Under the pieces are notes generated by a model that saw only the letters and a program-made list of their open reading frames with translations, did not search any database and had not been told where the DNA came from. Below are positions 4,047-59,984 of a stretch of DNA of 62,909 bases, piece by piece. The first letter of the stretch is position 1. Each line of letters begins with the position of its first letter. Source of the stretch: Phormidesmis priestleyi ULC007 (lineage in GTDB: Bacteria; Cyanobacteriota; Cyanobacteriia; Leptolyngbyales; Leptolyngbyaceae); assembly GCF_001895925.1 (NCBI RefSeq), contig NZ_MPPI01000027.1:1-62909 (forward strand), in the 5' to 3' direction. A program made the translations under genes and the position numbers.

Positions 4047-4125
4047 ATCAGATACACTTCCAGACTGTCTTCTCAGGATAGAACAAACTTTCGCGGTTGA
4101 TCCAAAACTGTCTGGGAAGACTCTT

Positions 4126-4156
4126 TGACCAAAACCTCGGAGGTTTGCGTAAGTCC
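4126..4156. repeat. Partial copy of a TGCGTAAGTCCT-ended palindromic repeat
   Basis: The stretch running through AACCTCGGAGGTTTGCGTAA to AGTCCT is the reverse complement of half of the 47-base palindrome at 23747-23793. A shorter copy (GAGGTTTGCGTAAGTCC) lies at 4749-4765, on the other side of the RNA-binding protein gene. Such ends resemble inverted repeats of small cyanobacterial insertion sequences. Confidence 0.6.
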
Positions 4157-4206
4157 TATTTGTATTTGAGATCGCATCCGTCTATTGAAGCGATGATCAC
4201 ACCCAA

Positions 4207-5802: not shown

Positions 5803-5840
5803 AGAAATCGTTTAGCGTTTCAGAATCAATGGTCAAATAC

Positions 5841-5912
5841 GCCCCCTAGCCCTAATTCTGGGAGAACTAGATCCGCTTAAAGTCCCCCAATTTTGGGGGA
5901 TTTAGGGGGCTT
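5841..5912. repeat. Nested-palindrome repeat, copy A
   Basis: The stretch runs from GCCCCCTAGCCC to GATTTAGGGGGC, with the inner palindrome TCCCCCAATTTTGGGGGA. It is one of six copies of the same element (others near 16867, 37101, 50371, 52066 and 59202). The left inner palindrome is degenerate here, and I see no clear outer inverted ends. It sits between the converging bvdR and pentapeptide-protein genes and may act as a transcription end. Confidence 0.75.
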
Positions 5913-16820: not shown

Positions 16821-16997
16821 AAACGTCAGTTCGATGAGTTCTTTCGCTGCGTTCTTCAGCGCTTCTGCCCCCTAAATCCCCCAATTCTGGGGGACTTCAA
16901 GCCCAGAATTGAGGTTCAAAGTCCCCCAATTTTGGGGGATTTAGGGGGCAGCCCGGATTAGCAACCGTAGTGAAAAGCTTCATCGAATTCACGTTAA
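16821..16997. mobile_element. Nested-palindrome repeat element, copy B (complete, about 177 bp)
   Basis: The outer ends are inverted: AACGTCAGTTCGATGAGTTC on the left against the inverse of CTTCATCGAATTCACGTT on the right. Inside (16867-16949) are two palindromes, ATCCCCCAATTCTGGGGGA and TCCCCCAATTTTGGGGGA, arranged head to head with GCCCCCTAAAT and ATTTAGGGGGC at their outer borders. It has no open frame of its own. It is one of three copies with recognisable outer ends (with 37053-37226 and 50304-50497), so it looks like a MITE-type element. Confidence 0.8.
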
Positions 16998-19315: not shown

Positions 19316-19393
19316 GCATGAATCGATCGCCTTAGCTCTCAGGGTTTCTGAACTGTCCTGTCGCTGTAATATACTAGATCAGGATCGTGGATT

Positions 19394-19470
19394 AAACCGT
19401 GTCGGTTACTTGCAACGTCAATGGGCACGGCAGTGCCATGCCCGTACGCAAATTTGGGTTTTAATTTAAG
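19394..19470. repeat. Dispersed repeat with GGGCACGGCAGTGCCATGCCC core
   Basis: The stretch with GGTTACTTGCAACGTCAATG, a GGCACGGCAGTGCC palindrome and GGTTTTAATTTAAG is nearly repeated at 41590-41657 (GGCTACTTGCAATACTAATG, then GGCTTTAATTTAAAG). The left part appears inverted at 46424-46470. It lies in the leader region of ycf4. Confidence 0.7.
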
Positions 19471-23697: not shown

Positions 23698-23746
23698 AAG
23701 TAATAGGAATTTTTAGAACTTTTTCGAGAACGGTCTTGCAATGATT

Positions 23747-23793
23747 AGGACTTACGCAAACCTCGGAGGTTTTGGTCAAAATGCGTAAGTCCT
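23747..23793. repeat. 47-base palindromic element AGGACTTACGCA...TGCGTAAGTCCT
   Basis: AGGACTTACGCA and TGCGTAAGTCCT are perfect 12-base inverted ends around a core with AACCTCGGAGGTT. Half copies occur at 4126-4156 and 4749-4765. It lies between nirB and nirD and may form a hairpin in their shared transcript. It is probably a minimal MITE from an insertion sequence with the same ends. Confidence 0.75.
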
Positions 23794-26564: not shown

Positions 26565-29500
26565 TTAGAATCGCAACCCATTTACTCCACCGACCGCTAA
26601 AGCACCCGCGATCGCCGAGGCTGCTAGCGAAGTCAATGCCGTGCCAAATAACCACCAAGCGGCTGTGGCTGCGGCTTTTTGCGTTTCGAGGGCTTGCTTT
26701 TTAGCTTGATGTTGCAGGGATTTGATCCGTCGCTGGGTTTCGTGCTGGATATAGTCTGCCTGATGCAATACCCCATCTCGCGCTGTTTCAATCTGGCTGA
26801 TGATGCGATCGGCATCAGTCTCAGACAAGTTAGGAATCGAGCCGAGAACGGCAGTCAGGGTGTTGCGATCGAACTGCCCCAATCGATTCCGCAGGGCATC
26901 GGCTCCCGCTTGGGGATCGTCAAACAGCTTGCTGAAATCTTGCTTGATGCCTTCGTAATTTAACTCAGGGCGATTTAACGAATTGAGATAGTGGCTAAGA
27001 TTCTCAGTCGTGCGGTCAATCACTGACTGAAAGCGCTGCTGAAGTTTCTCAAATTGCGCTGCAAACGCGTCTCGCACAGACAGAACTTGATCAATGATTT
27101 GATTGGCTTCTTCTTCAGTGATGTCTTTGCGTTGAGAGAGCAATGCCACCAGCGTGTCTCGATTGACGTGAGAGAGCCGATCGCCCACGCTGCTCACACC
27201 CGCCCGCGGATCACTCAGCAGTAGGCTTAAATCGCGCTTGATGCCTTCGGGGTTGAGTTCTTCTTTTTGGGTATTTTTCAGATAGGTTTCCAGGCTAGAC
27301 TCAAACGTCAGCGCTTGCTGTTGGGCACGACTGACGAGGCGACGCGGCGCTCTCACAAAATCGCGGATGGTGTCTTGAACCTGGTCGATCGCGCGATTGA
27401 CTTGCGCTTCGCTCAAATCTTGGCGCTGGCTAAGAAGTTTAACCAGCGTGTCTCGATCGACGTTAGCAAGCCGCGATCTCAAGGCATTGCCGCCTGCTTT
27501 TGGGTCGTTAAGCAGTGTAGTCAAGTCTCTGCGAATGCCTTCAGGATTGAGTTCTTCGAGATCAGTGCTTCTCAGATAGTCAGCAATCGCGGTCAAAGTC
27601 TGATCATATTGCGCTTTAGCGGTGTCGGCAAGTTGGCGCGGCGCTTGCAGAATGCGGTCGCGAACTGACTCAACGCGATCGAGAATCTGGTTAACCTGTT
27701 CTTGACTGAGGTCTTGACGCTGGCTCAACAGAGACACCAGCGTCTCGCGATCGAACTGAGCCAAGCGCGACCGCAGTGCCATCAATCCGGCTTGAGGGTC
27801 TTCAAACACCAGTTTTAACTCGCGCTCGATCGCATCGGGATTCAGTTCTTCTTTTTGGGTGTTGCGAAGATAATCTTCGACTCGTTGCCGCACCTCAGAT
27901 GCCTTTGCAGTTGCCTGATTGCGTAGTTCTTGAGCCGAATTAAGAATTCGATCGCGAATGGTTTCAAATTGATTCACAATCTGATTGGCTTCGTCTTGAC
28001 TAAGATCTTGACGCTGTTGCAACAAATTAACTAAATCATCTCGATTGAATTGACCAAATCGCGCCTGTAGCGTTTCCAATTCTGCTTCTGGATCTTCAAG
28101 TAGCTGTTGTAATTCTTGTTGAATTTTTGCTTCATTAAATTGCGCTTTATCGGTCGAGCGCAGATAGTTTTCGACACGGGTTTGCAGGTTGTTCGCCTGC
28201 TCTTGTGCATCGGCTTGCTCAACGATCGCCAAAACTTGCTGACGCACCTCTTCCATTAGGGTTGCACTCTCTTGAATTCGACCAGGGCTGAGGTCTTCTC
28301 GGCGGGTGAGTAAGTCTTCAAAATACGATCGGTTGAGTGCTTCGAGTTGACGACAAACTTCCCGCGAGTCTGCCTGAGGATCGTAAATGATGTCTCTAAA
28401 CTCATCTTGAATCGTCAGCCGATTTAAGTGCCAGGGCAGCGATCCTGACAGATAGTTTTCGACATCTGCCTTGATAATATTGCGAGGCAAAGCAGGTTGA
28501 TCAGCCACCTGTTCTTGAAGTTGATCGCCGACTTTTTCTGCTTGATCTTTGATTTGCTCACCTACTTTTGTGGCTTGTTGAGTGGTGCGATCGACGATTT
28601 TTTGCAGTTGTCCGCTCACTTTCTCAACATCGACATCTGACAAATCGACTCGACCCTGCACCGCCGACAATAGAGAACTCACGCCATATCTCAACGCCTG
28701 ATTTGTGAGGGATGCGCTTGCTTTGTGAGGATGATTTGCAGCCCGAATAAGTGATTCTAATTGCTCATAAACTTGACTGGATTGCAGGTCTTCTGGAGTC
28801 GCTGATTTGAAAGTTTGCAGCAGTTGATCGGGCAACTCTGCGGGAGTCTTACGAACGTTTTTCCAGACACTTTCTAGCGAGTCAGCGATGCGATCGAGGT
28901 CTTCTTGCGATAAATTAGTACGATCGCGGATTAAGGTTAGAAATTGTTGACGATCGAAGTTCCGAAACAAATCGGTGTCGGCAAGCTCTTGCAAATCTGC
29001 GGTGTTCAAAATCTTCTCAAACTGTCCGCGAATTTCATCCAGGTTTAAATGGGGAATCGGCAAACTCGCTAGAGAACTTTGCAGCGTTTCTCGAACAGCA
29101 TCGGGGTTAATGCCCGACGTAATCTCACGACGCACCGCCGCCGCAATATCTTCAGCCGTTGAAACTGCTTGATTTTTGGCAACATTTGCCCCGATCGCTG
29201 AAGTTGCCATTCCTAGCAGATCTTGTAGACCAGAAGTAGCCGTTTTGGCGATCGAGCCGACTAGCGAACCGATCGTGGTTGAGCCAAACCACATCAAAAT
29301 CGAGAAGTAAGTAGACCAGACGACGACCCCGACGATCGCGCCCAGAGTGACACTATTAATCAAGCTAAGTTTAACGGCTAAAAAGCACGCAGCAAACAAT
29401 GCAAGACTCACCGTTGCTAATGCCCAGATTCCAACTTTTGCTTCAATTTTACGAATGCTGCTTCCTAAGCTGCTGCTATCGTCTAAGTCATCAGTTGCGA

Positions 29501-36275: not shown

Positions 36276-37055
36276 ATGAACTACTCCGCTAAAGTCGATC
36301 GTATCTACACCGATGGAGCCTGTTCGGGCAATCCAGGGCCCGGTGGGTGGGGCACCGTCGCCTATTATGTCAACGGTGCAGTACACGAGATGGGAGGAGG
36401 CGACGCGCAAACTACTAACAACCGCATGGAAATGCAAGCCGCGATCGCTGCCCTTAAGTTTTTGCAAGACTTTGATCAGCAAGACCCGATCGCCCTTTAC
36501 ACTGACAGCGAATATGTCAAAAACGGCATCACTAAATGGATCAAAGGCTGGAAGCAAAAAGGCTGGAAAACTTCGACAGGGAAGCCCGTTCTCAATCAAG
36601 ATTTGTGGGAAATTCTCGACGAACTCAACTCAAAACAAGTCGAGTGGCGCTATGTGCGTGGGCACACTGGAGACATTGGCAACGAACGCTGTGATACGAT
36701 CGCCCGTGCCTTTTCTCTCGGCAAAACCCCTACGTTAAAGACATTCACCGATCAAGTCCAAGAACCTGAGGTTATCATGACGGATGCATCACTGCCCGCG
36801 CCCGTTGATTTGTCAGACTTGCCCCGTGAAGGTCGCGTCGAAAGCCTGCGGCACCTGGTAGAAACGCTGCAAATGGCAGATGAGATTGCCAGCAAAGCTT
36901 ATTTGATCACCAGTTCAGAACTCGCTGACCTGATAGATGTCAACGCCAGTGCCGTCACCAGCCGCGGTGATAACTGGGTTTGGCGCAACTGGGTTGTCTC
37001 ACGGGTGCGACGAGAAGGCAATCAAATTTTGTGGCAGTTAGAAAGAGTGGATTAA
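36276..37055 (+). CDS. rnhA: Ribonuclease HI with a cyanobacterial C-terminal extension
   Basis: 259 residues. The RNase HI domain (about 5-150) has the catalytic Asp in YTDGACSGNPGPGGWG, Glu in NNRMEMQAAIAAL, Asp in YTDSEYV, and the HTGDIGNERCD block with the active-site His and final Asp. It cleaves RNA in RNA:DNA hybrids. Residues about 160-259 are an extra domain (VESLRHLVETLQMADEIASK, VNASAVTSRGDNWVWRNWVV) not found in bacterial RNase HI of about 155 residues. It reads like a helical DNA-binding module. The stop codon lies at the very left end of repeat copy C. Confidence 0.92.
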   Translation: MNYSAKVDRIYTDGACSGNPGPGGWGTVAYYVNGAVHEMGGGDAQTTNNRMEMQAAIAALKFLQDFDQQDPIALYTDSEYVKNGITKWIKGWKQKGWKTSTGKPVLNQDLWEILDELNSKQVEWRYVRGHTGDIGNERCDTIARAFSLGKTPTLKTFTDQVQEPEVIMTDASLPAPVDLSDLPREGRVESLRHLVETLQMADEIASKAYLITSSELADLIDVNASAVTSRGDNWVWRNWVVSRVRREGNQILWQLERVD

Positions 37056-37226
37056 CGTCAGTTCGACAGAAGTGGTTCGTTCCGATTATGGATTCGGGAA
37101 GCCCCCTAAATCCCCCAATTTGAGGGACTTTGAACCAGAAATTTGGCTTGAAGTCCCCCAAATTGGGGGATTTAGGGGGCAGAAGCCGCTGACAACGAAG
37201 CGAAAAAACTCATCGAACTGACGTTT
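37053..37226. mobile_element. Nested-palindrome repeat element, copy C (complete, about 174 bp)
   Basis: Outer ends: TAACGTCAGTTCGACAGAAG on the left and CTCATCGAACTGACGTTT on the right, mutually inverted. The inner part 37101-37180 runs from GCCCCCTAAATCCCCC to GGGGGATTTAGGGGGC with two inner palindromes. The left end overlaps the stop codon of rnhA, so the element supplies or abuts the end of that gene. Confidence 0.85.
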
Positions 37227-46344: not shown

Positions 46345-46490
46345 TCCTTTCTAGCACAACCCCTCTGACCTCTTGAGGCTCGTTGATTTTGCCAAACGAT
46401 TTATAGATGAAGATCCAAGCTTATGTACGGGCATGGCACTGCCGTACCCATTGACCTTGCAAGGAACCAACAATGTTTGATTCACGATCG

Positions 46491-50303: not shown

Positions 50304-50497
50304 AGCGTCAGTTCGACAGAAGTGGTTCACTCCGAACAGCTTTGCTGAGAAGGCAGTGTGAATTCGGGAGAGCTACCTAAATCCCCCAAATTGGGGAACT
50401 TCAAGCCAAAAATTCCGGTTCAAAGTCCCCCAGAATGGGGGATTTAGGGGGCCGAACCCGTTGACACGAAGCGAAAAAACTCGTCGAACTGACGTTA
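50304..50497. mobile_element. Nested-palindrome repeat element, copy D (complete, about 194 bp)
   Basis: Left end AGCGTCAGTTCGACAGAAGT and right end CTCGTCGAACTGACGTT are inverted copies. The inner part 50371-50452 shows ATCCCCCAAATTGGGGAA and TCCCCCAGAATGGGGGA. A 20-base insert in its left arm (AACAGCTTTGCTGAGAAGGC) distinguishes it from copies B and C. Confidence 0.85.
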
Positions 50498-50574: not shown

Positions 50575-50985
50575 ATGTTGAAGTTTACCTATACCGAAAC
50601 GGGGATCACTATTGAGCGCGTCAACCAATCGCTCGAAGAGTTGGTAATGCTGCGGGTCGTGTTGGCGATGCGAGTCGGGCAACGGCTGATTGTCGAACCG
50701 GGCACTGCGACCTTTTTGCTGTCTGCAACTTTGCAGGCTTGGAAACTGCTGGATGCGGTGGTGCAACGATCGCTCAATGACACGATCGCGCTCTGCCAAT
50801 GCGATGCAGAATTCATCGAGGTCAGCCTGCGAGGAACCTGGATCGCGCAAACCACCAGCAGCGAGGAAGGCATCTTTTTAGCCGAATTGGGCGACTCGCT
50901 CCCCGGAACGCTGTGTGAGCGGGCGGAGTTTATTCTGTTTAAGCTTTGGCAAGAGTCGTCGGCGTGCCCGTCTTCGCTGCGATAA
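50575..50985 (+). CDS. Conserved cyanobacterial hypothetical protein
   Basis: 136 residues, starting MLKFTYTETGITIERVNQSL, with the later block NDTIALCQCDAEFIEVSLRG TWIA read across residues 80-103. This pattern recurs in cyanobacteria-specific hypothetical proteins. I know no function. There is no signal peptide or transmembrane helix, although the middle (VMLRVVLAMRVGQRLIV) is hydrophobic. Its last 47 bases overlap the end of menE on the opposite strand, so the two genes share coding DNA in antiparallel. A ribosome binding site AGGAG lies 12 bases upstream. Confidence 0.7.
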   Translation: MLKFTYTETGITIERVNQSLEELVMLRVVLAMRVGQRLIVEPGTATFLLSATLQAWKLLDAVVQRSLNDTIALCQCDAEFIEVSLRGTWIAQTTSSEEGIFLAELGDSLPGTLCERAEFILFKLWQESSACPSSLR

Positions 50986-52450
50986 TTTGCCTGAGTTGTA
51001 GGTAGTTGATCTTTCCTTGAGGATTTCGAGGCAATTTTTCGAGTGATATCCAATATTTGGGGCGCTTGAATTTGCTGAGAGTTTCATCAAGGGAAGTGAT
51101 CAATGCTTGATTAGAAACGTCTGAATTTTGAGGCACATAAACGGCAGTGATGGCTTGCCCCCAAATGCGATCGCTGATGCCTAACACGCAGACATCTTTG
51201 ACGAGTTTGGTTGCTATAATTGCCGCCTCAACTTCTGCCGGAAAGACGTTTTCGCCCCCGGTAATAATCTTGTTGCTGTCGCGTCCGACAATCTGCAAAC
51301 AGCCTTGCGAATCAAAAAATCCTAAATCGTCGGGTTGATAAACGGTTTGCTTTAAAAAGTTGGGATAGTAACCCAACATCAATGAGTCGGTTTGAATGGT
51401 GATTTTTCCGGTTTCACCCATTTTTAACGGTTCGCCCGTTTCGCTTTGAATGGTGATCTGAGTGTGGGGTAAGGCTTGACCAGAACCGAATTTGCCCTTT
51501 AAGAAATCTTCTGGTTTGAGGGTGACAATCTGTGAGGCAGTTTCGGTCATGCCATAAGTGGGCGCGATCGGCAGATGATACGATCGTGCTTGATCTAACA
51601 AGTCTGACCACGCAGGCGCACCGCCTAACAAAATTGTTTCAAATTGGGAAAGCCAAGAAATGGTTTGAGGTTGATATAAAAGTTTTTGGAGTTGAGTGGG
51701 AACGAGGGAGAGAAAAAAGTTTTGAGGGCTGATAGACTGTGCTTCTCCGGCTTCTAGAGCTTTCCAGGGAAGAATCACTAACTGTCCGTCTGAGAGGAAC
51801 GATCGCATAAATTGCATTAAACCGCTGACATGATAGAGCGGCAACACGCAAAACGAATGGACGCGATCGACTCCAAAATATTGCTGAAATCCTTGAACCG
51901 AAGCCGTCAACGTCTCCCAGGTGTGCATCGCAAATCGAATCTTGCCCGAAGTGCCCCCCGTCGGAATCATGATCAGAGGCGAATCGGGAAGCGTAAAGCG
52001 TGATTTTGTAGGATGAACGTCTTTAGAAAAACGTAAATTTGACGGCTTCGTTACGAGTCCGTCCTGCCCCCTAAATCCCCCAAGTTTGGGGGACTTTGAA
52101 CTCCGGCTCCCCCAAACTTGGGGGTTGGGGGGCGGTTCGTCAGAGTGCGTTGAACTCACGTTAAAAAATGGCAGGGATTCTCCCCAGATTAAATCGGGTT
52201 CTACGAGGTCAAAAACCTGTTGCCATTCGGCTTCAACCCAGTCGGGGTTACACAAAAATATTGAGCAATTTGCAGAACAGGCGGCAAGAAACCCCGCGAG
52301 AAACTCGATCGGGTTCCGTTCGGCTAACAAAATGGTCGGAGGAGTTGAATATCGTTTGAGTGCCTGATATCGCTGGTCTGCTAAGTCGTTGAGTTCTCGA
52401 TTGCTGTAGCCGAGCCAATTTTCTCGGTGGTGAATTAGAGACTTTGCCAT
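50939..52450 (-). CDS. menE: 2-succinylbenzoate-CoA ligase (MenE) carrying an in-frame repeat
   Basis: 503 residues, an ANL-family adenylating enzyme. Motifs are MIPTGGTSGKIRFAMHTWE (P-loop-like), PTYGMTETAS, QPDDLGFFD, GRDSNKIITGGENVFPAEVE and the C-terminal Lys in RNPQGKINYLQLR. It activates o-succinylbenzoate with ATP and CoA in phylloquinone synthesis. Residues about 100-150 (including SSKSPKLGGFRGQDG) are encoded by the nested-palindrome repeat, and they lengthen the protein by roughly 50 residues over what the family needs. The core motifs are intact. The start overlaps the menC stop by 16 bases, the last gene of menA-menC-menE. Confidence 0.93.
   Translation of the reverse strand: MAKSLIHHRENWLGYSNRELNDLADQRYQALKRYSTPPTILLAERNPIEFLAGFLAACSANCSIFLCNPDWVEAEWQQVFDLVEPDLIWGESLPFFNVSSTHSDEPPPNPQVWGSRSSKSPKLGGFRGQDGLVTKPSNLRFSKDVHPTKSRFTLPDSPLIMIPTGGTSGKIRFAMHTWETLTASVQGFQQYFGVDRVHSFCVLPLYHVSGLMQFMRSFLSDGQLVILPWKALEAGEAQSISPQNFFLSLVPTQLQKLLYQPQTISWLSQFETILLGGAPAWSDLLDQARSYHLPIAPTYGMTETASQIVTLKPEDFLKGKFGSGQALPHTQITIQSETGEPLKMGETGKITIQTDSLMLGYYPNFLKQTVYQPDDLGFFDSQGCLQIVGRDSNKIITGGENVFPAEVEAAIIATKLVKDVCVLGISDRIWGQAITAVYVPQNSDVSNQALITSLDETLSKFKRPKYWISLEKLPRNPQGKINYLQLRQIIAAKTGTPTTLAKA
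52066..52133. mobile_element. Nested-palindrome repeat, copy E, inside menE
   Basis: GCCCCCTAAATCCCCCAAGT starts the left palindrome and CTCCCCCAAACTTGGGGG the right one. A degenerate outer end (GCGTTGAACTCACGTTAAA) lies at 52148-52166. The whole is read through on the minus strand without a stop and codes residues about 95-150 of MenE. Confidence 0.8.
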
Positions 52451-53388
52451 AGTCGATCGCCCTCCTCCATCAATTCATCAAACCAATGAGAGGTTCCAAA
52501 TCCGACGGCGCGATTTTTGAGCGATAGTTCTGCGGCTAATCGCAGCCCAGCTTGTTGTCCGATCGCGGTTTCAAACACCGATGAAAAGACGGTATCGATC
52601 GCGTTCTCTCGACAAAATTTTCGTAATTGAGATGGAGAACCGACGATCGCAGGTTTGATCACAAAAATTCCTCGCCAGCCCTTTTGATAGCATTCGCGCA
52701 ACTGATCCAAAGTGGCGACGGATTCGTCGAGCGCTAACGGCGTTGAGTATTTTCGGCTCAGTTCCTGTATGAGACCAAATTGACTGACTGTGAGCGGTTG
52801 TTCTAAAAATTCCAGAGTCGGGTCTGTTTTGCCTAACGAATCGCAGCGTTGAAGCCACATTTCAGCCTGTGAGAATGTCAGTCCTGCGTTGGCATCTAAT
52901 CTCAACAACGCTTTAGCCGGGAGTTCATCAACAAGTTGTTCAAACAGTTGAATCTCATCTTCAATGTCAGCAACGCCAATCTTCCATTTAAAGGTGCGAT
53001 CGCCTTGACTCCACAAATCTTGCCAGCGATCAAGGGCAGCGAATCCAGTTGGCAAAAGAGCGCTGTAGGTCAACTTCGACGGGATCGTCGGATCAGTCGT
53101 TAACATTTCCTGAGCAGATTCAAACCCAAATTGACACGCCGATAAATGAGCCGGAATCGTCGCGATCGTGTCAAAACTAATCACTTCAGGCAACTGCTGA
53201 CAAAACTCGATCGCGTCTTCAAACCGTTCTGAACCAAACCAAGAAAGCGGTGCAATCTCACCAAAACCAACACGCCCGACATCATCAGTGAGACGTAAAA
53301 TAATGCCTTCTCGAACCGTCCATAAACCATGACTCGTCTGCAACGGTTGCCGAAACGATCGACGATAAGGACGATACTCAAATCGCAT
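52435..53388 (-). CDS. menC: o-Succinylbenzoate synthase (MenC)
   Basis: About 317 residues from the ATG at 53388 (MRFEYRPYRRSFRQPLQTSH). The enolase-superfamily blocks are FKWKIGV (catalytic Lys), LLRLDANAGLT (metal Asp), EFLEQPL (metal Glu), LALDES (Asp/Glu) and IFVIKPAIVGS (second Lys). It dehydrates SHCHC to o-succinylbenzoate. The open frame extends 18 codons upstream into menA sequence and is not likely to be used. It lies two bases after menA and overlaps menE, so the three form one operon. Confidence 0.93.
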   Translation of the reverse strand: MRFEYRPYRRSFRQPLQTSHGLWTVREGIILRLTDDVGRVGFGEIAPLSWFGSERFEDAIEFCQQLPEVISFDTIATIPAHLSACQFGFESAQEMLTTDPTIPSKLTYSALLPTGFAALDRWQDLWSQGDRTFKWKIGVADIEDEIQLFEQLVDELPAKALLRLDANAGLTFSQAEMWLQRCDSLGKTDPTLEFLEQPLTVSQFGLIQELSRKYSTPLALDESVATLDQLRECYQKGWRGIFVIKPAIVGSPSQLRKFCRENAIDTVFSSVFETAIGQQAGLRLAAELSLKNRAVGFGTSHWFDELMEEGDRLWQSL

Positions 53389-53390
53389 TT

Positions 53391-54299
53391 TTAAACCAGT
53401 TGCGTCAACATAAAGCCCAGCCCTAAAAGCAGCCCGCTCCAAAAATGGAGTTCGACCGCGATCAAACGACAGAAGGTAAGTTTTTGAGGTTGATCATGCT
53501 GCGAACCGATAAATTTGCAGAGTTTACGAGCGACGGGCAAGCTGAGAAAGATCAGCAGCGTCCAAACGGGGAAAACTTTGAGAATCACAAATAGAGTGGT
53601 CAGCGCATAGAGACTGCCGCAAATCCAGGGCAAAAGCTGTGCCGATCGCTTCGTCCCCAACCGCACTACCGGGGATCTTTTGCCGATCGCGGCATCATCT
53701 TTCACCTGATTAAAGTGAGAGCAAAACAAAATTAGGCTGGTGGCAATGCCCACGACGATCGACGCTGCCAAACTCGTATTTGACCAGGCTTTTGTCTGAC
53801 TGTAATAAGTCGCCGCAAACGCCAATGGGCCAAACGCAAAGAAACAGAGAATTTCTCCAAGCCCTTTATAGCTGAGACGAAACGGCGGACCCTGGTAGAT
53901 ATAGCCAATGCCACAGCACAGCAGAATTAGCCCAATCACTGTGAAATCTTGCTGCCGAGCGGCGATCGTGCTGATGCCCAACAATCCTGCTGCGAGACAA
54001 AGATTACTAATCCAAAAAATCAGGGACTTATTGCCCGTCATATTCACCAGAGAATTTTTCTTATTGACATCGGCTCCGGTTTCAGAGTCAAACACGTCAT
54101 TGCTAAAATTTTCCCAGGCCAAAATCAAAATGGCGGAGATCAAAAACGTGAAGAAGATTGAAGCGTTGAATTGATGTGTTTCAGCAAAGGCAACGGCTGA
54201 ACCGACCCAAATCGGCATGATTGCCACGCTATACATCGGTGGCTTAATGGCGGCAAACCAGAGTTTTTTACTCGTCCGCTCGATCGTCCTGGTCGTCAT
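53391..54299 (-). CDS. menA: 1,4-dihydroxy-2-naphthoate phytyltransferase (MenA)
   Basis: About 302 residues from the ATG at 54299, with AGGAG eight bases upstream. UbiA-type prenyltransferase with eight or so membrane helices. The first Asp-rich motif is in NFSNDVFDSETGADVNKKNS and the second in VKDDAAIGKRSPVVRLG. AIKPPMYSVAIMPIWVGSAV is the usual N-terminal block. It attaches the phytyl tail to DHNA in phylloquinone synthesis, probably at the thylakoid or plasma membrane. It heads the minus-strand operon, back to back with the cytochrome P450 gene, so the gap 54300-54474 holds both promoters. Confidence 0.93.
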   Translation of the reverse strand: MTTRTIERTSKKLWFAAIKPPMYSVAIMPIWVGSAVAFAETHQFNASIFFTFLISAILILAWENFSNDVFDSETGADVNKKNSLVNMTGNKSLIFWISNLCLAAGLLGISTIAARQQDFTVIGLILLCCGIGYIYQGPPFRLSYKGLGEILCFFAFGPLAFAATYYSQTKAWSNTSLAASIVVGIATSLILFCSHFNQVKDDAAIGKRSPVVRLGTKRSAQLLPWICGSLYALTTLFVILKVFPVWTLLIFLSLPVARKLCKFIGSQHDQPQKLTFCRLIAVELHFWSGLLLGLGFMLTQLV

Positions 54300-54474
54300 T
54301 AACAAAACTCCTGTAGCTGCCAGAAGACTCTAATAATGCTGTGCTTCTCAGTCTCCCATCTGGTTTGAGGCATTGGAGGGGTGTTATAGAAACGTTACAT
54401 CGTCGGAGGATTATTCCTCATCCCTTCCTCCTTTGCTTCTAGACTAGATCGCAGACGCTCGTAGAAATGCCTTG

Positions 54475-55860
54475 ATGAAATTGCCTGATGGATCTCGGTT
54501 GCCTTCGCTGCTGCAAACCCTTGCGATCGTGGCTCAACCGATTAACTTTCTTGAAAGCTGTGCCCAACAATATGGAGACACCTTTACGCTGCGGGTATTG
54601 GGTGTCAACTCTCCGCCTGTCGTCTTTTTTAGCAATCCTGAATCGATTCAGGCAATCTTTACGACGCTGGCAGACTCGTTTGAGTTTGGCAAAGTGACTC
54701 ACATTTTTCGTCCGTTGGTGGGCGATCAGTCGGTGATCATGCAAGAAAGGCAACGCCATCAGCGACAGCGACAGTTGTTGATGCCTGCGCTGCATCGAGA
54801 ACAGCTTTATGGTCAGGGGCGCGTCATTTGTGATCTGGCGAGACAGCAGATGTCAGATTGGCAGATTGGACGATCGCTAACTATTCGCGAAGAGATGTCA
54901 GAAATCTCGCTTCAGGTGATTTTGCAGGTCGTGTTTGGCATGGTGCCCGGAGCGCGTTACGAACGACTCAAACAGTTGCTGAGTCATTTACTCGAAGCCA
55001 TTACCTCGCCGCTTTACTCGACGCAGTTTTTCTTTCCCATGCTTCAGCAAAATTTGGGGCGCTGGAGTCCTTGGGGCGGTTTTTTGGCTCAACAGCAGGA
55101 GATTGACGCGCTAATTTATGCTGAGATTGGCGATCGTCGCTCCCAATCCCTAAACGGTCGAACTGACATTCTCTCAGTGCTGATGACGGCACACGATGAT
55201 CAAGGCGAATCGATGAGCGATGTGGAACTGCGCGACCAGTTGATGACCTTGTTGCTACTCGGACACGAAACCACCGCATCGGGTTTAGCGTGGGCATTTT
55301 ACTGGATTCATCGTCATTCAGACTGTCTCGATCGCCTGCTGACAGAACTTCAAACCCTGGGCGAAAATCCCGATCCGACGGCGCTATCTCAGTTGCCCTA
55401 TCTGACCGCCGTTTGCAAAGAAGCTTTGCGCGTCTATCCGATCGCCCTGATCTCTCAACCTCGCAAAGTTAAACGAACCGTTCACATTGAGGGTTATGAA
55501 TTTGAGCCAGGCGCAATTTTGGTGCCCTGCATTTATTTGGCGCATCATCGAGCCGACACTTACCCAGAGCCAGAGCGATTTAATCCCGATCGCTTCATCG
55601 CTCAGAAGTTCTCGCCGTCTGAGTTTTTGCCGTTTGGCGGCGGCAGTCGCAGTTGTGTCGGCATGGCGCTCTCGCTGTTTGAAATGAAGCTGGTTTTGGC
55701 GACAGTTTTATCGAGCTATGAGTTTCAAACGAACTACGATCGTCCGGTGCGTCCGGTGCGGCGCGGCATCACGTTTGTGCCGCCTGACGATTTTCGGTTA
55801 AAGGTGACCGGGCAACGCTCGATCGAGAACCTGATCCTTCAGCCATTAGAATCAGCTTAA
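54475..55860 (+). CDS. Cytochrome P450, CYP110-like, at the head of the men genes
   Basis: 461 residues from the ATG at 54475. P450 signatures are complete: I-helix LLLLGHETTASGLAWAFYW, K-helix EALRVYP (ExxR), PERFNPDRF, and haem loop FLPFGGGSRSCVGMALSLFE with the axial Cys. The N-terminus (KLPDGSRLPSLLQTLAIV) has no membrane anchor. The closest group I recall is cyanobacterial CYP110, known for fatty-acid or alkane/terpene hydroxylation. It lies 24 bases before menF on the same strand and divergent from menA, so it is likely cotranscribed with menF. A role on the phylloquinone tail is a hypothesis from context. Confidence 0.93.
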   Translation: MKLPDGSRLPSLLQTLAIVAQPINFLESCAQQYGDTFTLRVLGVNSPPVVFFSNPESIQAIFTTLADSFEFGKVTHIFRPLVGDQSVIMQERQRHQRQRQLLMPALHREQLYGQGRVICDLARQQMSDWQIGRSLTIREEMSEISLQVILQVVFGMVPGARYERLKQLLSHLLEAITSPLYSTQFFFPMLQQNLGRWSPWGGFLAQQQEIDALIYAEIGDRRSQSLNGRTDILSVLMTAHDDQGESMSDVELRDQLMTLLLLGHETTASGLAWAFYWIHRHSDCLDRLLTELQTLGENPDPTALSQLPYLTAVCKEALRVYPIALISQPRKVKRTVHIEGYEFEPGAILVPCIYLAHHRADTYPEPERFNPDRFIAQKFSPSEFLPFGGGSRSCVGMALSLFEMKLVLATVLSSYEFQTNYDRPVRPVRRGITFVPPDDFRLKVTGQRSIENLILQPLESA

Positions 55861-55884
55861 CGAGATGGTTTTATTGATACCCGC

Positions 55885-57297
55885 ATGACTATCACCCCTT
55901 GTCGGCTCGATCGTGCTCAAAATCAAACTGCGATCGCTCAATTCCTAGCGACTTGCAAAAGAGCGAACCTTCGCAAATCTTCGCAAATTGTCAGCATTTC
56001 GTTAGAGATAGAACCCATCGATCCTCTAGCAGTTCTTCAGGCAATTGTTCGACCCGATCAGCGCCACTTTTATTTTGAGAAAAGCGGTCAGCAAGAAGCA
56101 ATTTTGGCGATCGATACTACGATCGAGCTTAAAACTGAGGGCAAGAATCGATTCGTTGAGGCAAAAGAATTTATCCGCAGCGCTTCAACCAATGCGATTC
56201 AATTTGGAGATTCAGAAACTCCTTTTTCGGGAACACATTTTTTCTGTAGTTTCTCATTTTTTGATCAGCCCCTGCAAGAGAATTTGTCTTTTCCATCTGC
56301 GTCGGTTTTTCTCCCTCGTTGGCAGGTGTCTCGTCAAGCGGATCGCTGCACGATCGTCGCCAATGTCGTAATCGATCAAACTCTAGACCCGGAGCGATCA
56401 TCTGCTCAAATATGGCAAAAGTTTCAGACGATTAGAGCCGTAAAACATCAAGCGATTGATTTGGCGATCGGACTCAACAAACTCGCCAGAAAAGATTTTT
56501 CCCATACTAATCATTTTAAAAAGTCAGTCTTATCTGTTCTGGAATCAATTCAAAAAAAGCACCTTCATAAAATCGTTTTAGCTCATGCGTTAGACGTGAC
56601 ATTACCGATTCCATTTAACTTAGTCAACTCTCTTAATAATCTCCGCAGACTTTACTCAAATTGTTATATTTTTTCAACCAATAACAGTCAGGGACAAACC
56701 TTTATTGGGGCAAGTCCAGAACGTTTAGTTAAGATTCACAATCAGCATTTAGAAACAGATGCTTTAGCAGGGTCAGCCCCTCGTGGCAAAACCGCGATCG
56801 AAGACATTCAACTGGCCGATCGCTTGCTGTCAAGTCAAAAAGAAACACATGAACATCAAGTCGTGATTGATTTCATCACGCGCCATTTAGAAGAATTGGG
56901 GCTGAATACGCAGCGATCGTCGGCTCGTCTGCTGCAACTTCCCAATATTCAACACTTACATACTCCAATTCGGGCCACCGTTCCATCGAGGGTTCACCTG
57001 CTGGATGTAGTCGCCAAACTGCACCCAACCCCGGCAGTGGCAGGCGCTCCGAGAGAGCTTGCCTGTGAGCAAATTCGTCACTATGAGCAGTTTGAGCGAT
57101 CGCTGTATGCGGCTCCGATCGGCTGGGTCGATCAGCAAGGTAACGGCGAATTTGCGGTCGGAATTCGTTCTGCGGTGCTGAATGGATGTCACGCTCGATT
57201 ATTTGCCGGAGCGGGAATCGTGGCAGGTTCCAATCCCGATAAAGAATTAACCGAAGTCCAGCTCAAGCTACAAGCGCTTTTAGCCGCGTTGGTCTAG
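55885..57297 (+). CDS. menF: Isochorismate synthase (MenF)
   Basis: 470 residues of the chorismate-binding family. Motifs are KKHLHKIVLAHALDV, QTFIGASPERLVKI, DALAGSAPRGKT, HLHTPIRATVP, LHPTPAVAGAPRELACE and GAGIVAGSNPDKELTEV. The Lys in KIVLA and the AGSAPRG block are those of isochorismate rather than anthranilate synthases, and there is no tryptophan-feedback motif. It makes isochorismate from chorismate, the entry step to phylloquinone. The first 200 residues are divergent, as is common in cyanobacterial MenF. It lies between the P450 and Uma2 genes in a same-strand run leading to menD and menB. Confidence 0.92.
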   Translation: MTITPCRLDRAQNQTAIAQFLATCKRANLRKSSQIVSISLEIEPIDPLAVLQAIVRPDQRHFYFEKSGQQEAILAIDTTIELKTEGKNRFVEAKEFIRSASTNAIQFGDSETPFSGTHFFCSFSFFDQPLQENLSFPSASVFLPRWQVSRQADRCTIVANVVIDQTLDPERSSAQIWQKFQTIRAVKHQAIDLAIGLNKLARKDFSHTNHFKKSVLSVLESIQKKHLHKIVLAHALDVTLPIPFNLVNSLNNLRRLYSNCYIFSTNNSQGQTFIGASPERLVKIHNQHLETDALAGSAPRGKTAIEDIQLADRLLSSQKETHEHQVVIDFITRHLEELGLNTQRSSARLLQLPNIQHLHTPIRATVPSRVHLLDVVAKLHPTPAVAGAPRELACEQIRHYEQFERSLYAAPIGWVDQQGNGEFAVGIRSAVLNGCHARLFAGAGIVAGSNPDKELTEVQLKLQALLAALV

Positions 57298-57339
57298 TCA
57301 AGCGACTACACTGATAAAGAGAGACGCGAGTGCTGTGCT

Positions 57340-58122
57340 ATGACCTCATTTGCAGATTTACCGACCTTCACAAAACTGCCTGACCACACGCAGCTTCCCG
57401 AATCAGATGGCACGTTTGTGAAAAACTTTCTAGAACACCCTCAGAGTGTTTTGTTGACTGACTCGATCGAGCCGATTTTGCAGCAGCGTCATGCAGACGG
57501 GCAATATTGCATCGGTCAAGATAGCGGCATCTATTGGCGGATGACTGACCCCCCCCAAAGAGGCGCAGAGGCACCTGATTGGTTTTATGTGGCGAATGTG
57601 CCCCCCACGATTAATGGGGAGTCTCGCCGTTCTTACGTGCTTTGGCAAGAACTGATCGCGCCGCTGATCGTGCTGGAGTTTGTCTCAGGCGACGGCTCAC
57701 AAGAGCGAGACACCACACCCTGGACGGGCAAATTTTGGATTTATGAACAGGTGATTCGTCCCGCTTTTTATGGAATTTATGAAGTCACCAAAGCCAGCGT
57801 TGAGGTCTATCACCTGATCGAAAATCAATATCTACCCGTGCCCACCAACGATCGGGGACACTACCCCATTTCTCAACTAGGCGTTGAGCTAGGAATCTGG
57901 CAAGGTCAATATCAAAATCTCGACATTCCCTGGCTGCGCTGGTGGGACAATCAGGGAACCTTGCTCTTAACCGGACACGAAACCGCCGCGCAGACTCAGC
58001 GCCAACTTACTCAAGCCGAATCTCAACTTGAGCAAGCCGAGTCTCAACTTGAGCGAGAACGTCAGCGTACAGAGCGTCTTGTTGCCCAACTCCGGGCGCA
58101 AGGAATTGATCCAGAAGCTTAA
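57340..58122 (+). CDS. Uma2-family (DUF820) PD-(D/E)XK nuclease-like protein
   Basis: 260 residues. The Uma2 domain has LTDSIEPILQQRHADGQYCI, YWRMTDPPQRGAEAPDWFYV (with the PD/PDW block), LIAPLIVLEFVSGDGSQERD (ExVS) and KFWIYEQVIRPAFYGIYE. A C-terminal coiled coil holds three near repeats of QAESQLEQ. Uma2 proteins are abundant in cyanobacteria, often in dozens of copies, and their target is not known. It lies 42 bases after menF and 8 bases before menD, so it is embedded in the men operon. A role in the pathway is unlikely; insertion of a mobile gene between men genes is the simplest reading. Confidence 0.88.
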   Translation: MTSFADLPTFTKLPDHTQLPESDGTFVKNFLEHPQSVLLTDSIEPILQQRHADGQYCIGQDSGIYWRMTDPPQRGAEAPDWFYVANVPPTINGESRRSYVLWQELIAPLIVLEFVSGDGSQERDTTPWTGKFWIYEQVIRPAFYGIYEVTKASVEVYHLIENQYLPVPTNDRGHYPISQLGVELGIWQGQYQNLDIPWLRWWDNQGTLLLTGHETAAQTQRQLTQAESQLEQAESQLERERQRTERLVAQLRAQGIDPEA

Positions 58123-58130
58123 TTTTCCGA

Positions 58131-59984
58131 ATGTCGATCGATTTCCGCAACACCAATACTGTCTGGGCTTCCGTCCTGGCAGAAACCCTTCAGCGTCTCG
58201 GCTTGACCACGGCTGTGATCTGCCCCGGTTCTCGATCGGCACCTTTGGCGATCGCGTTTGCTCAACATCCCAAAATTGAGGCAATTCCGGTTTTAGATGA
58301 GCGATCAGCGGCGTTTTTTGCCCTGGGTCTGGCGCGCCGCACTCACCAACCTGTGGCATTAATCTGCACGTCTGGCACGGCTGGCGCAAATTTCTATCCA
58401 GCGATTATCGAGGCGAGTGAAAGCTGCGTTCCTCTGTTAGTTCTGACAGCCGATCGTCCGCCAGAACTGCGGGACTGCAACGCCGGACAAACGATCGACC
58501 AGCACAAACTCTTTGGCTCCTATCCCAAAGCTTACGCAGAGTTGGCATTGCCCTCGATCGAGTTGCCCATGCTGGCATATTTACGCCAAACGTTGATCCA
58601 ATTGTGGCAGCGATCACTAGGCTCAAGTCCTGGAGTCGTCCACCTCAATCTTCCGTTCCGCGATCCGCTCGTCCCGCTTCCCCAGTCAGATGCTCAAGCA
58701 CTAGAAGCCACCTTTGAGGCTGAAACCTTTTTTGGTCACGTTCATCCGCTCGTTGCCGTCTCTCTGTCTGCTGCTGTCTGCCCATTTCCTCTAAATGCTC
58801 ACGGCATCATCATCGCTGGATGTGCCCAACCCGAATCACCAGAGCGTTATTGTCGGGCGATCGCCCATCTCTCAAAATCACTAGGAATGCCCGTCTTAGC
58901 TGAAGGATTGTCTCCCCTCCGCAACTATGCAAGTCTCAATCCTTATCTAATTTCAACTTATGATTTGATTTTGAGAAACCACAATTTAGCTCAAAAGCTG
59001 GCTCCCGATGTGGTAATTCGGGTGGGAGAGATGCCCACTAGTCGAGAATTACGGCAGTGGTTAGCAGAAACTCAGCCGAGGCAATGGGTGATCGATCCGA
59101 GCGATCGCAATCTTGATCCACTTCACGGCAGAACGACTCATCTCCAAACATCTGCCGAATCGTTTGCAGAAACGCTAGGCTTCCTGCACGAATCATCGGA
59201 AGCCCCCCTAGCCCCCCAAGCTTGGGAACCAGAATCAAAGTCCCCCAGAATTGGGGGATTTAGGGGGATTTCCCGGATTCATGCAAAAGGTCTACTGTCC
59301 GCCGAAACACATCCGTCTAGCCCTTATTTAGAACTTTGGCAGACCGCCGACTCAAAAATAAGACACGCGATCGACCAAACTATGACGATCGAAGAGACCT
59401 TATTTGAAGGCAAAACTGCCTGGTTGCTGTCTCAGTCTTTGCCTAATGGAACTCCTCTTTTTATCTCTAACAGTATGCCCGTGCGAGATGTCGAGTTTTT
59501 CTGGAAACCCGGAGATTCTGCCATCCAGCCCTTTTTTAATCGTGGTACAAACGGCATTGACGGCACACTTTCAACCGCCTTAGGAGTCGCTCACCACAAC
59601 CAAAGCAGCGTTTTATTGACTGGAGATCTCGCACTCCTGCACGACACCAACGGCTTCCTACTTCGTAATCATTTTGTTGGGCATCTGACGATCGTGCTGA
59701 TCAACAACAACGGCGGCGGAATTTTTGGAATGTTGCCGATCGCTCAATTCAATCCCCCGTTTGAAGAATTCTTTGCCACGCCACAAAACATTAATTTCGC
59801 CAACCTTTGCAAAACCTACGATTTAGAGTATGAGCAGATTCACACCTGGAGTCAGCTTGTCAAACGTCTAAATCCTCTCCCTGCTCAGGGCATCCGCGTA
59901 TTAGAATTGCAGACCGATCGCGCTGCCGATGCCCGATGGCGGCACCATCATTTAGGCATTTTTGCCCGATCGATTAATCCTTAA
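58131..59984 (+). CDS. menD: SEPHCHC synthase (MenD) carrying an in-frame repeat
   Basis: 617 residues, a thiamine-diphosphate enzyme. Motifs are VICPGSRSAPLAIAF, DERSAAFFALGLA (the catalytic Glu), LICTSGTAGANFYPAI, and in the ThDP-binding half GDLALLHDTNG and NNNGGGIFGMLPIAQF. It adds 2-oxoglutarate-derived succinyl to isochorismate. Residues about 358-380 (PLAPQAWEPESKSPRIGGFR and on) are coded by the repeat copy at 59202-59268 and lie in the loop between the central and C-terminal domains. It makes the protein longer than the usual 550-580. The active-site motifs are untouched. Twelve bases separate it from menB. Confidence 0.93.
   Translation: MSIDFRNTNTVWASVLAETLQRLGLTTAVICPGSRSAPLAIAFAQHPKIEAIPVLDERSAAFFALGLARRTHQPVALICTSGTAGANFYPAIIEASESCVPLLVLTADRPPELRDCNAGQTIDQHKLFGSYPKAYAELALPSIELPMLAYLRQTLIQLWQRSLGSSPGVVHLNLPFRDPLVPLPQSDAQALEATFEAETFFGHVHPLVAVSLSAAVCPFPLNAHGIIIAGCAQPESPERYCRAIAHLSKSLGMPVLAEGLSPLRNYASLNPYLISTYDLILRNHNLAQKLAPDVVIRVGEMPTSRELRQWLAETQPRQWVIDPSDRNLDPLHGRTTHLQTSAESFAETLGFLHESSEAPLAPQAWEPESKSPRIGGFRGISRIHAKGLLSAETHPSSPYLELWQTADSKIRHAIDQTMTIEETLFEGKTAWLLSQSLPNGTPLFISNSMPVRDVEFFWKPGDSAIQPFFNRGTNGIDGTLSTALGVAHHNQSSVLLTGDLALLHDTNGFLLRNHFVGHLTIVLINNNGGGIFGMLPIAQFNPPFEEFFATPQNINFANLCKTYDLEYEQIHTWSQLVKRLNPLPAQGIRVLELQTDRAADARWRHHHLGIFARSINP
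59202..59268. mobile_element. Nested-palindrome repeat, copy F, inside menD
   Basis: GCCCCCCTAGCCCCCCAAGC begins it and TCCCCCAGAATTGGGGGA with TTTAGGGGG ends it. The flanking CCCGGATT matches the right flank of copy B. It is read in frame as SSEAPLAPQAWEPESKSPRI, GGFRGIS. No outer end is clear. Confidence 0.85.

Follow-up and report, generated by a model that had tools for sequence, protein, structure and literature searches.

The window analyzed here, the whole 62,909-nucleotide contig C36 (NZ_MPPI01000027.1) of the draft genome of the cyanobacterium Phormidesmis priestleyi ULC007 (5.68 Mb, 118 contigs, rich in repeats), carries a nested-palindrome repeat in frame within two genes of the vitamin K pathway, menE and menD. 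These insertions are very probably the near-neutral products of a mobile repeat whose genic copies have been filtered for reading frame and for placement in linkers, and copies of one outer type, type A, were most likely moved by a transposase of the IS982 family. An earlier reading made from the sequence alone had placed the repeat at six positions in the window, four outside genes and two within the open frames of menE and menD, and had given the inserted peptides as SPKLGGFRG and SPRIGGFRG; both observations were confirmed. Comparisons drew on a set of 58 genomes, the window's own included, in which a genome of the same genus (G001) served as the main insert-free reference for MenD, MenE and a third gene described below.

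In-frame elements in MenE and MenD

The menE gene (50,939–52,450, minus strand) encodes a 503-aa o-succinylbenzoate-CoA ligase with AMP-binding and AMP-binding_C domains, the best solved relatives of which are 2-succinylbenzoate-CoA ligases. Within it lies a 131-bp miniature inverted-repeat transposable element (MITE) of type A (52,031–52,161, minus strand), made up of terminal repeats and the core palindrome. The element is bordered by a target duplication, TAGAAAA on the left (52,024–52,030) and TAAAAAA on the right (52,162–52,168), the two copies matching at six of seven bases; element and 7-bp duplication together amount to 138 bp, or 46 codons. The menD gene (58,131–59,984, plus strand) encodes a 617-aa SEPHCHC synthase, recognized by its TPP_enzyme_N and TPP_enzyme_M_2 domains and by solved MenD relatives, and contains a 119-bp element (59,176–59,294, plus strand) whose ends are similar to TAGACCTCCTGCACGAATCC, the type-C ends found in copies from contigs C27, C28, and C30. 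Counted from the alignment, this segment of MenD is 40 residues longer than that of G001. The MenE and MenD elements differ in outer type and are therefore most likely two separate insertions, the likeness of their peptides being explained by the shared core and by the fact that not all frames are open.

Alignment with homologs, which the sequence-only reading had proposed as a check for clean borders, found both G001 enzymes without the insert and with gaps at both sites, the inserted residues being absent from them. G001 MenE aligns only at residues 5–91 and 150–503 (open frame of 463 aa, against 511 aa here) and G001 MenD at 1–349 and 389–617 (579 against 624 aa); the same gaps are seen by DNA alignment. 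The nearest named MenD found, that of P. priestleyi BC1401 (88% identical by alignment), has the linker DNA of G001 over the stretches seen for both. Among the other relatives, many show MenD and MenE alignments interrupted at the same places as G001, and in others the alignment runs through with a different linker sequence of the genome's own (MenD of G043, G007, and G039; MenE of G033, G006, G013, G029, G022, G030, and G046).

Both elements occupy the position at which their host protein varies most in length. In MenE the greatest variation, 7–84 aa among 54 sequences, falls between P85 and I160, and in MenD, 17–82 aa among 126 sequences, between L338 and Y399. The earlier statement that catalytic motifs are undamaged is borne out for MenD, where an alignment of 29 sequences has no invariant column between H337 and L400, which bracket the insert. 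The inserted MenD segment falls between two stretches that align to the solved structure 2x7j, one reaching residue 367 and the other starting at residue 373, and an AlphaFold model of the protein (mean predicted local distance difference test score, pLDDT, 75.7) has values below 50 at 355–393 and 208–216, and also at 116–121 and 528–552.

The mobile unit and its candidate parent

The exact core 16-mer, CCCCCTAAATCCCCCA, occurs 199 + 228 times genome-wide, against 3 + 2 for a reversed control. With at most one mismatch the counts rise to 262 + 273, at which level the control (209 + 231) is uninformative because the 16-mer is almost identical when read backwards. Most copies are two-armed, so the genome probably holds roughly 270 of them. 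The repeat noted in the sequence-only reading is thus not a product of chance, but the palindrome proved to be only the center of a larger unit with terminal inverted repeats. A sample of 73 sites was taken from contigs C10–C33, where places were listed, and from the window; one site (C30:277969) was dropped as unrelated sequence and 72 were kept. In this sample the terminal repeats on either side of the core fall into several types, and 12 copies fit none of four end patterns.

Type-A ends, AACGTSARTTCGA in a looser end pattern, are present on both sides in 39 sampled copies. These full-length copies measure 133–197 bp counted from AACGT, most of them 171–175 bp, and have no transposase inside. 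With ACGT taken as the end, 21 of the 39 have an exact 7-bp target duplication and 30 have one with at most one mismatch, against none of the 39 in the control; a reading of the duplication as 5 bp was replaced by 7 bp once the ends of the insertion sequence described below had been seen. Three type-A copies with terminal repeats and core lie outside genes in the window, at 16,822–16,995 (174 bp), 37,054–37,225 (172 bp), and 50,304–50,496 (193 bp), and the fourth non-genic copy, at about 5,830–5,909, consists of the core only, with one arm degraded. The window also contains two other pairs of dispersed inverted repeats, different in sequence (4,124–4,158 with 23,746–23,780, 35 nt, 97%; 19,383–19,468 with 46,404–46,489, 86 nt, 81%) and, at 26,905–27,837, a direct repeat of four copies at a regular 294-nt spacing, which may encode a repeated protein domain.

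A third in-frame copy, in a 621-aa frame with a PMT_2 domain on contig C30, is of the same 131-bp type as that in MenE, to which it is 83% identical across 121 bases. It is flanked by TGGTTTA twice, and G001 has TGGTTTA once, an exact empty site; relative to G001 the gene is longer by 138 bp (46 codons). Nine other genomes gave a match to this gene, and in every one of them the alignment is interrupted in the insert region.

Transposase matches in the same genome point to a candidate parent. One of 24 DDE_Tnp_1 matches, locus L392, lies between inverted ends resembling those of type A, over a span of 1,031 bp, and its frame matches the IS982 transposase model NF033520 (180.5 bits, cut-off 130) as well as PF13612. 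Locus L410 repeats the left part of L392 and L398 its right end, and at several further transposase loci only one end-like site is present; some of these sites have two mismatches and may be due to chance. L396, at first suspected of being a second insertion sequence end, is a fragment of a MITE lying upstream of a transposase match, and matches to the IS1380-type profile PF13701 all fell below its cut-off. Type A is short and non-autonomous, with terminal inverted repeats and a fixed 7-bp duplication, as in MITEs generally, and it alone of the outer types shares its ends with an insertion sequence, the autonomy of L392 being putative given the stop in its frame. Judged by these ends and the profile match, type A is most likely derived from IS982.

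Genic placement here and in relatives

Only three of the 72 copies, those in MenD, MenE, and the PMT_2-domain protein, lie in long genes, and all three are in frame. Neither of the outcomes that the sequence-only reading had named as refuting was therefore seen, neither the same residues in the insert-free MenD and MenE nor a lack of in-frame excess among genic copies, although three is a small number. By a simple codon score the remaining 69 copies are outside coding frames, some of them with the neighboring gene unrecognized on one or both sides; seven of these lie within open frames of 84–138 aa that are probably chance frames. Genes split by a copy, scored as same-strand frames of at least 80 aa entering and leaving it, were found for none of the 72 copies here and for 1 of 64 in relatives, and the sole candidate, L333, reads as two neighboring genes. 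An open frame is combined with a fitting length in six of the 39 full-length type-A copies, and these six include both of the genic ones (Fisher p 0.02), as expected if frame is required. In a genome-wide peptide search, the 150 scored candidates of 328 contained, beyond the three genes, only one copy in a frame longer than 127 aa. This copy (genome G000, contig C105, 5,334–5,438; locus L264) belongs to the 5′ leader of a 475-aa open frame; although it keeps that frame, it precedes the likely start codon and was not counted as an in-frame insertion. With so few in-frame copies and no sign of a disrupted gene, these results indicate frame filtering rather than frame seeking.

The exact arm is present in 26 of the 58 genomes and abundant in a few. 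Core peptides are encoded in frame by menE of G029, G021, and G010 and by menD of three genomes, G029 and G021 at the first linker and G007 at the second, with two reading frames in use (SKSPKLGGFRG and GPLNPPILGDFE...GGLGG); in G021 one arm only was seen in each of the two enzymes. These copies are apparently independent of those described here, and G029 and G021 belong to the same genus, so that for each enzyme the two genomes may share a single event. Of the six element loci of G029, three are in frame, those in MenD, in MenE, and in a DinB-FGE protein. In ten relatives, 19 of 69 exact-arm loci lie in frames of at least 120 aa, the 69 being those listed for G010, G013, G008, G009, G024, G029, G040, and G053 together with two of three arms of G007 and six of 14 arms of G031. 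Fifteen remain after L320, L323, L375, and L383 are left out as short or upstream of the first methionine, the first three of these also having no Pfam match. Among the loci kept, L311 has no Pfam match, L311, L313, L316, and L331 are near the N terminus with the start codon uncertain, and L312 and L321 are at the C-terminal tail, L312 also at a contig edge. G010 accounts for nine in-frame loci out of its 27, and G008, G009, G031, G040, and G053 have none in frames of this length.

Targeted loci add in-frame copies in CobN and CbiD of G021, where family matches are nearly full-length around the insert, and in the BREX-1 protein PglX of G001 (L341), a 1,024-aa frame with the copy near residue 306. 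The positions used are often junctions, such as CbiG_N/TP_methylase, DinB/FGE, and TPR/CHAT, or lie within ThyX and DnaB inteins. In the two inteins (L317 and L328 of G010) the element sits ahead of the C-terminal splicing block, a site usually occupied by the homing endonuclease. Five G010 loci (L313, L315, L321, L328, and L330) have in common a longer left flank ending in sequences like GCAATGGCTGGCCCCC, and in this genome the element might supply a start codon to genes that bear it at their 5′ end.

Other repeats occupy the same linkers. In loci of Microcoleus, Tychonema, and Lyngbya the second MenD linker contains a different palindrome, with the peptide VPPLxKGGLGG in up to two or three copies by eye. 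Among named loci at least 9 kb long whose linker has 20 aa or more, the DNA of the linker is found again at another place in the locus for 13 of 62 second and 8 of 76 first MenD linkers, against 5 of 760 tests over ten MenD control segments (4 of 76 from segment 240–275 and 1 of 76 from 280–315). The loci are related and many matches are of tandem type, so these recurrences are not independent events. For MenE, linker DNA recurred in its own neighborhood in none of seven named loci, and the claim that linkers act as repeat sinks in distant cyanobacteria therefore rests on MenD.

Competing explanations and known systems

Near-neutral insertion would proceed as follows. An IS982-family transposase would move type A in trans, acting on ACGTSARTTCGA ends and leaving 7-bp target duplications; copies would land at many places, and selection would purge those that break genes. 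For a genic copy to survive, the summed length of element and duplication would have to be divisible by three, with one frame open from end to end, and the site would have to be a disordered linker, a loop, or the end of a protein. Such sites would be the MenD linker that joins domains II and III and the MenE linker ahead of the ATP-binding motif, MenD having taken up about 40 residues and MenE 46, with both enlarged enzymes probably still active. On this account MenD and MenE are favored because their linkers are long and free to vary. In its favor are the insert-free genes of G001, the 7-bp duplications of type A, the IS982 frame between type-A-like ends, the in-frame state of all genic copies with no gene split, the length-variable sites of insertion, the low pLDDT of the MenD insert region, and dN/dS, which relative to G001 is low in both genes (about 0.12 in MenD, from dN 0.064 and dS 0.52; about 0.16 in MenE, from dN 0.093 and dS 0.59). 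Several points weigh against it. Confidence in the MenE fold model is low (mean pLDDT 50.7), and the model is too poor to be used beyond its lowest-confidence segment; a clear target duplication was not found around the MenD element. The dN/dS values reflect the whole period since the lineages of G001 and this genome parted, on both sides, rather than the period after insertion. L392, the sole IS982 copy with both ends, has a stop inside the transposase frame, its left end departs from that of the MITE at as many as two bases, and a target duplication of its own was not evident at the locus; because of the stop and the missing duplication it can be regarded only as a candidate parent. Types B and C, the latter including the MenD element, were tied to no insertion sequence.

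A selected function for the peptide or the mRNA hairpin, whether as a translational pause, a regulatory structure, or a new binding surface, would account for the presence of inserts in both enzymes of one pathway, and in G029 these two genes are two of six element loci. Random placement predicts 0.003 such insertions in G029 and 0.16 here, with chances of two or more of 3e-6 and 0.011, respectively, figures that ignore linker tolerance. The two insert mRNAs fold strongly (z –6.8 and –4.6), but this is common to any palindromic repeat. Relatives use two different reading frames, G001 has neither insert, G021 shows a single arm in each enzyme, and the same MenD linkers are occupied by other repeats, all of which makes selection for function an unlikely explanation. 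Still less probable is that the repeats are repetitive extragenic palindromic (REP) elements or their paired form, REPINs, moved by a REP-associated tyrosine transposase (RAYT). Each copy does have two inverted hairpin units, and hundreds of copies lie mostly outside genes, as in that system; type A, however, has terminal repeats and 7-bp duplications, and the GTAG tag was not seen in the core by eye. Six matches to PF01797 (Y1_Tnp), five of them over the cut-off, were found, but the core repeat was present at none of the six loci fetched, and two of the matches adjoin TnpB-like frames, as in IS200/IS605. That the insertions are assembly errors or the marks of genes being lost is hardly credible, even in a repeat-rich draft of this many contigs: both lie inside a long contig with the frame kept, like cases occur in other genomes, the window holds the only full MenD and MenE among the matches listed for this genome, and dN/dS is low in both. 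A broader reading, itself rather unlikely, is that a few enzyme linkers across cyanobacteria (MenD I/II and II/III, the segment before the ATP motif of MenE, and junctions such as CbiG-CobJ, DinB-FGE, and TPR-CHAT) are standing landing zones that unrelated mobile and tandem repeats enter repeatedly in frame, in which selfish DNA would be the main source of new linker sequence and some inserts would have become functional spacers or translational pause sites.

In several genera inserts are present at identical linkers of these enzymes, which marks linkers that tolerate insertion, and the insert codons of MenD and MenE make it directly testable whether such peptides are tolerated or used. For annotators, repeat-derived residues in cyanobacterial proteins need not be errors. 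Literature searches, in which subscription journals were thinly covered, found nothing on this repeat family. The kind itself is known, since REPs in frame have already been described in many species (PMC3733652); as far as the literature was searched, what is new is the connection to IS982, the exact empty site, and the fact that different genera use the same linkers again and again.

Coding palindromic repeats are best known from Rickettsia, and the likeness to Rickettsia palindromic elements (RPEs) drawn by the sequence-only reading holds for the way the repeat works. As described in a review (PMC10969869), RPEs are palindromic elements of about 150 bp found in frame in unrelated genes with apparently working products; the same is seen here and in relatives, including CobN, CbiD, CbiG-CobJ, TPR-CHAT, DinB-FGE, and PglX. 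It does not extend to the coding fraction, which is nearly half of the elements in R. conorii by the same source and 3 of 72 in our sample, nor to the unit, which is here a MITE of insertion-sequence type. The hosts in the present case are free-living cyanobacteria, in which terminal repeats, target duplications, an exact empty site, and the family of a candidate IS982 parent can all be read, and the resemblance drawn here is one of mode. Other cyanobacterial MITEs, Nezha and the MITEb and MITEe elements of Anabaena PCC 7120, are likewise short, non-autonomous, and bounded by terminal repeats, and open frames have been reported in MITEb and MITEe (PMC10969869; Nezha also PMC3733652); compared by description, the in-frame recurrence in the same linkers across genera is additional here. 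GTAG and CGTC REPs also place palindromic repeats inside coding genes, decorating them in many species with inserts of 20–30 amino acids and more, but these are tagged units (PMC3733652), the GTAG ones often near RAYT genes, whereas type A has 7-bp duplications and IS982-like ends and RAYT was not found beside the repeat. A further counterpart is the IS982-family insertion sequence of this genome, whose ends resemble those of the type-A MITE and enclose an IS982 transposase frame, the MITE differing in its lack of a transposase and in its interior.

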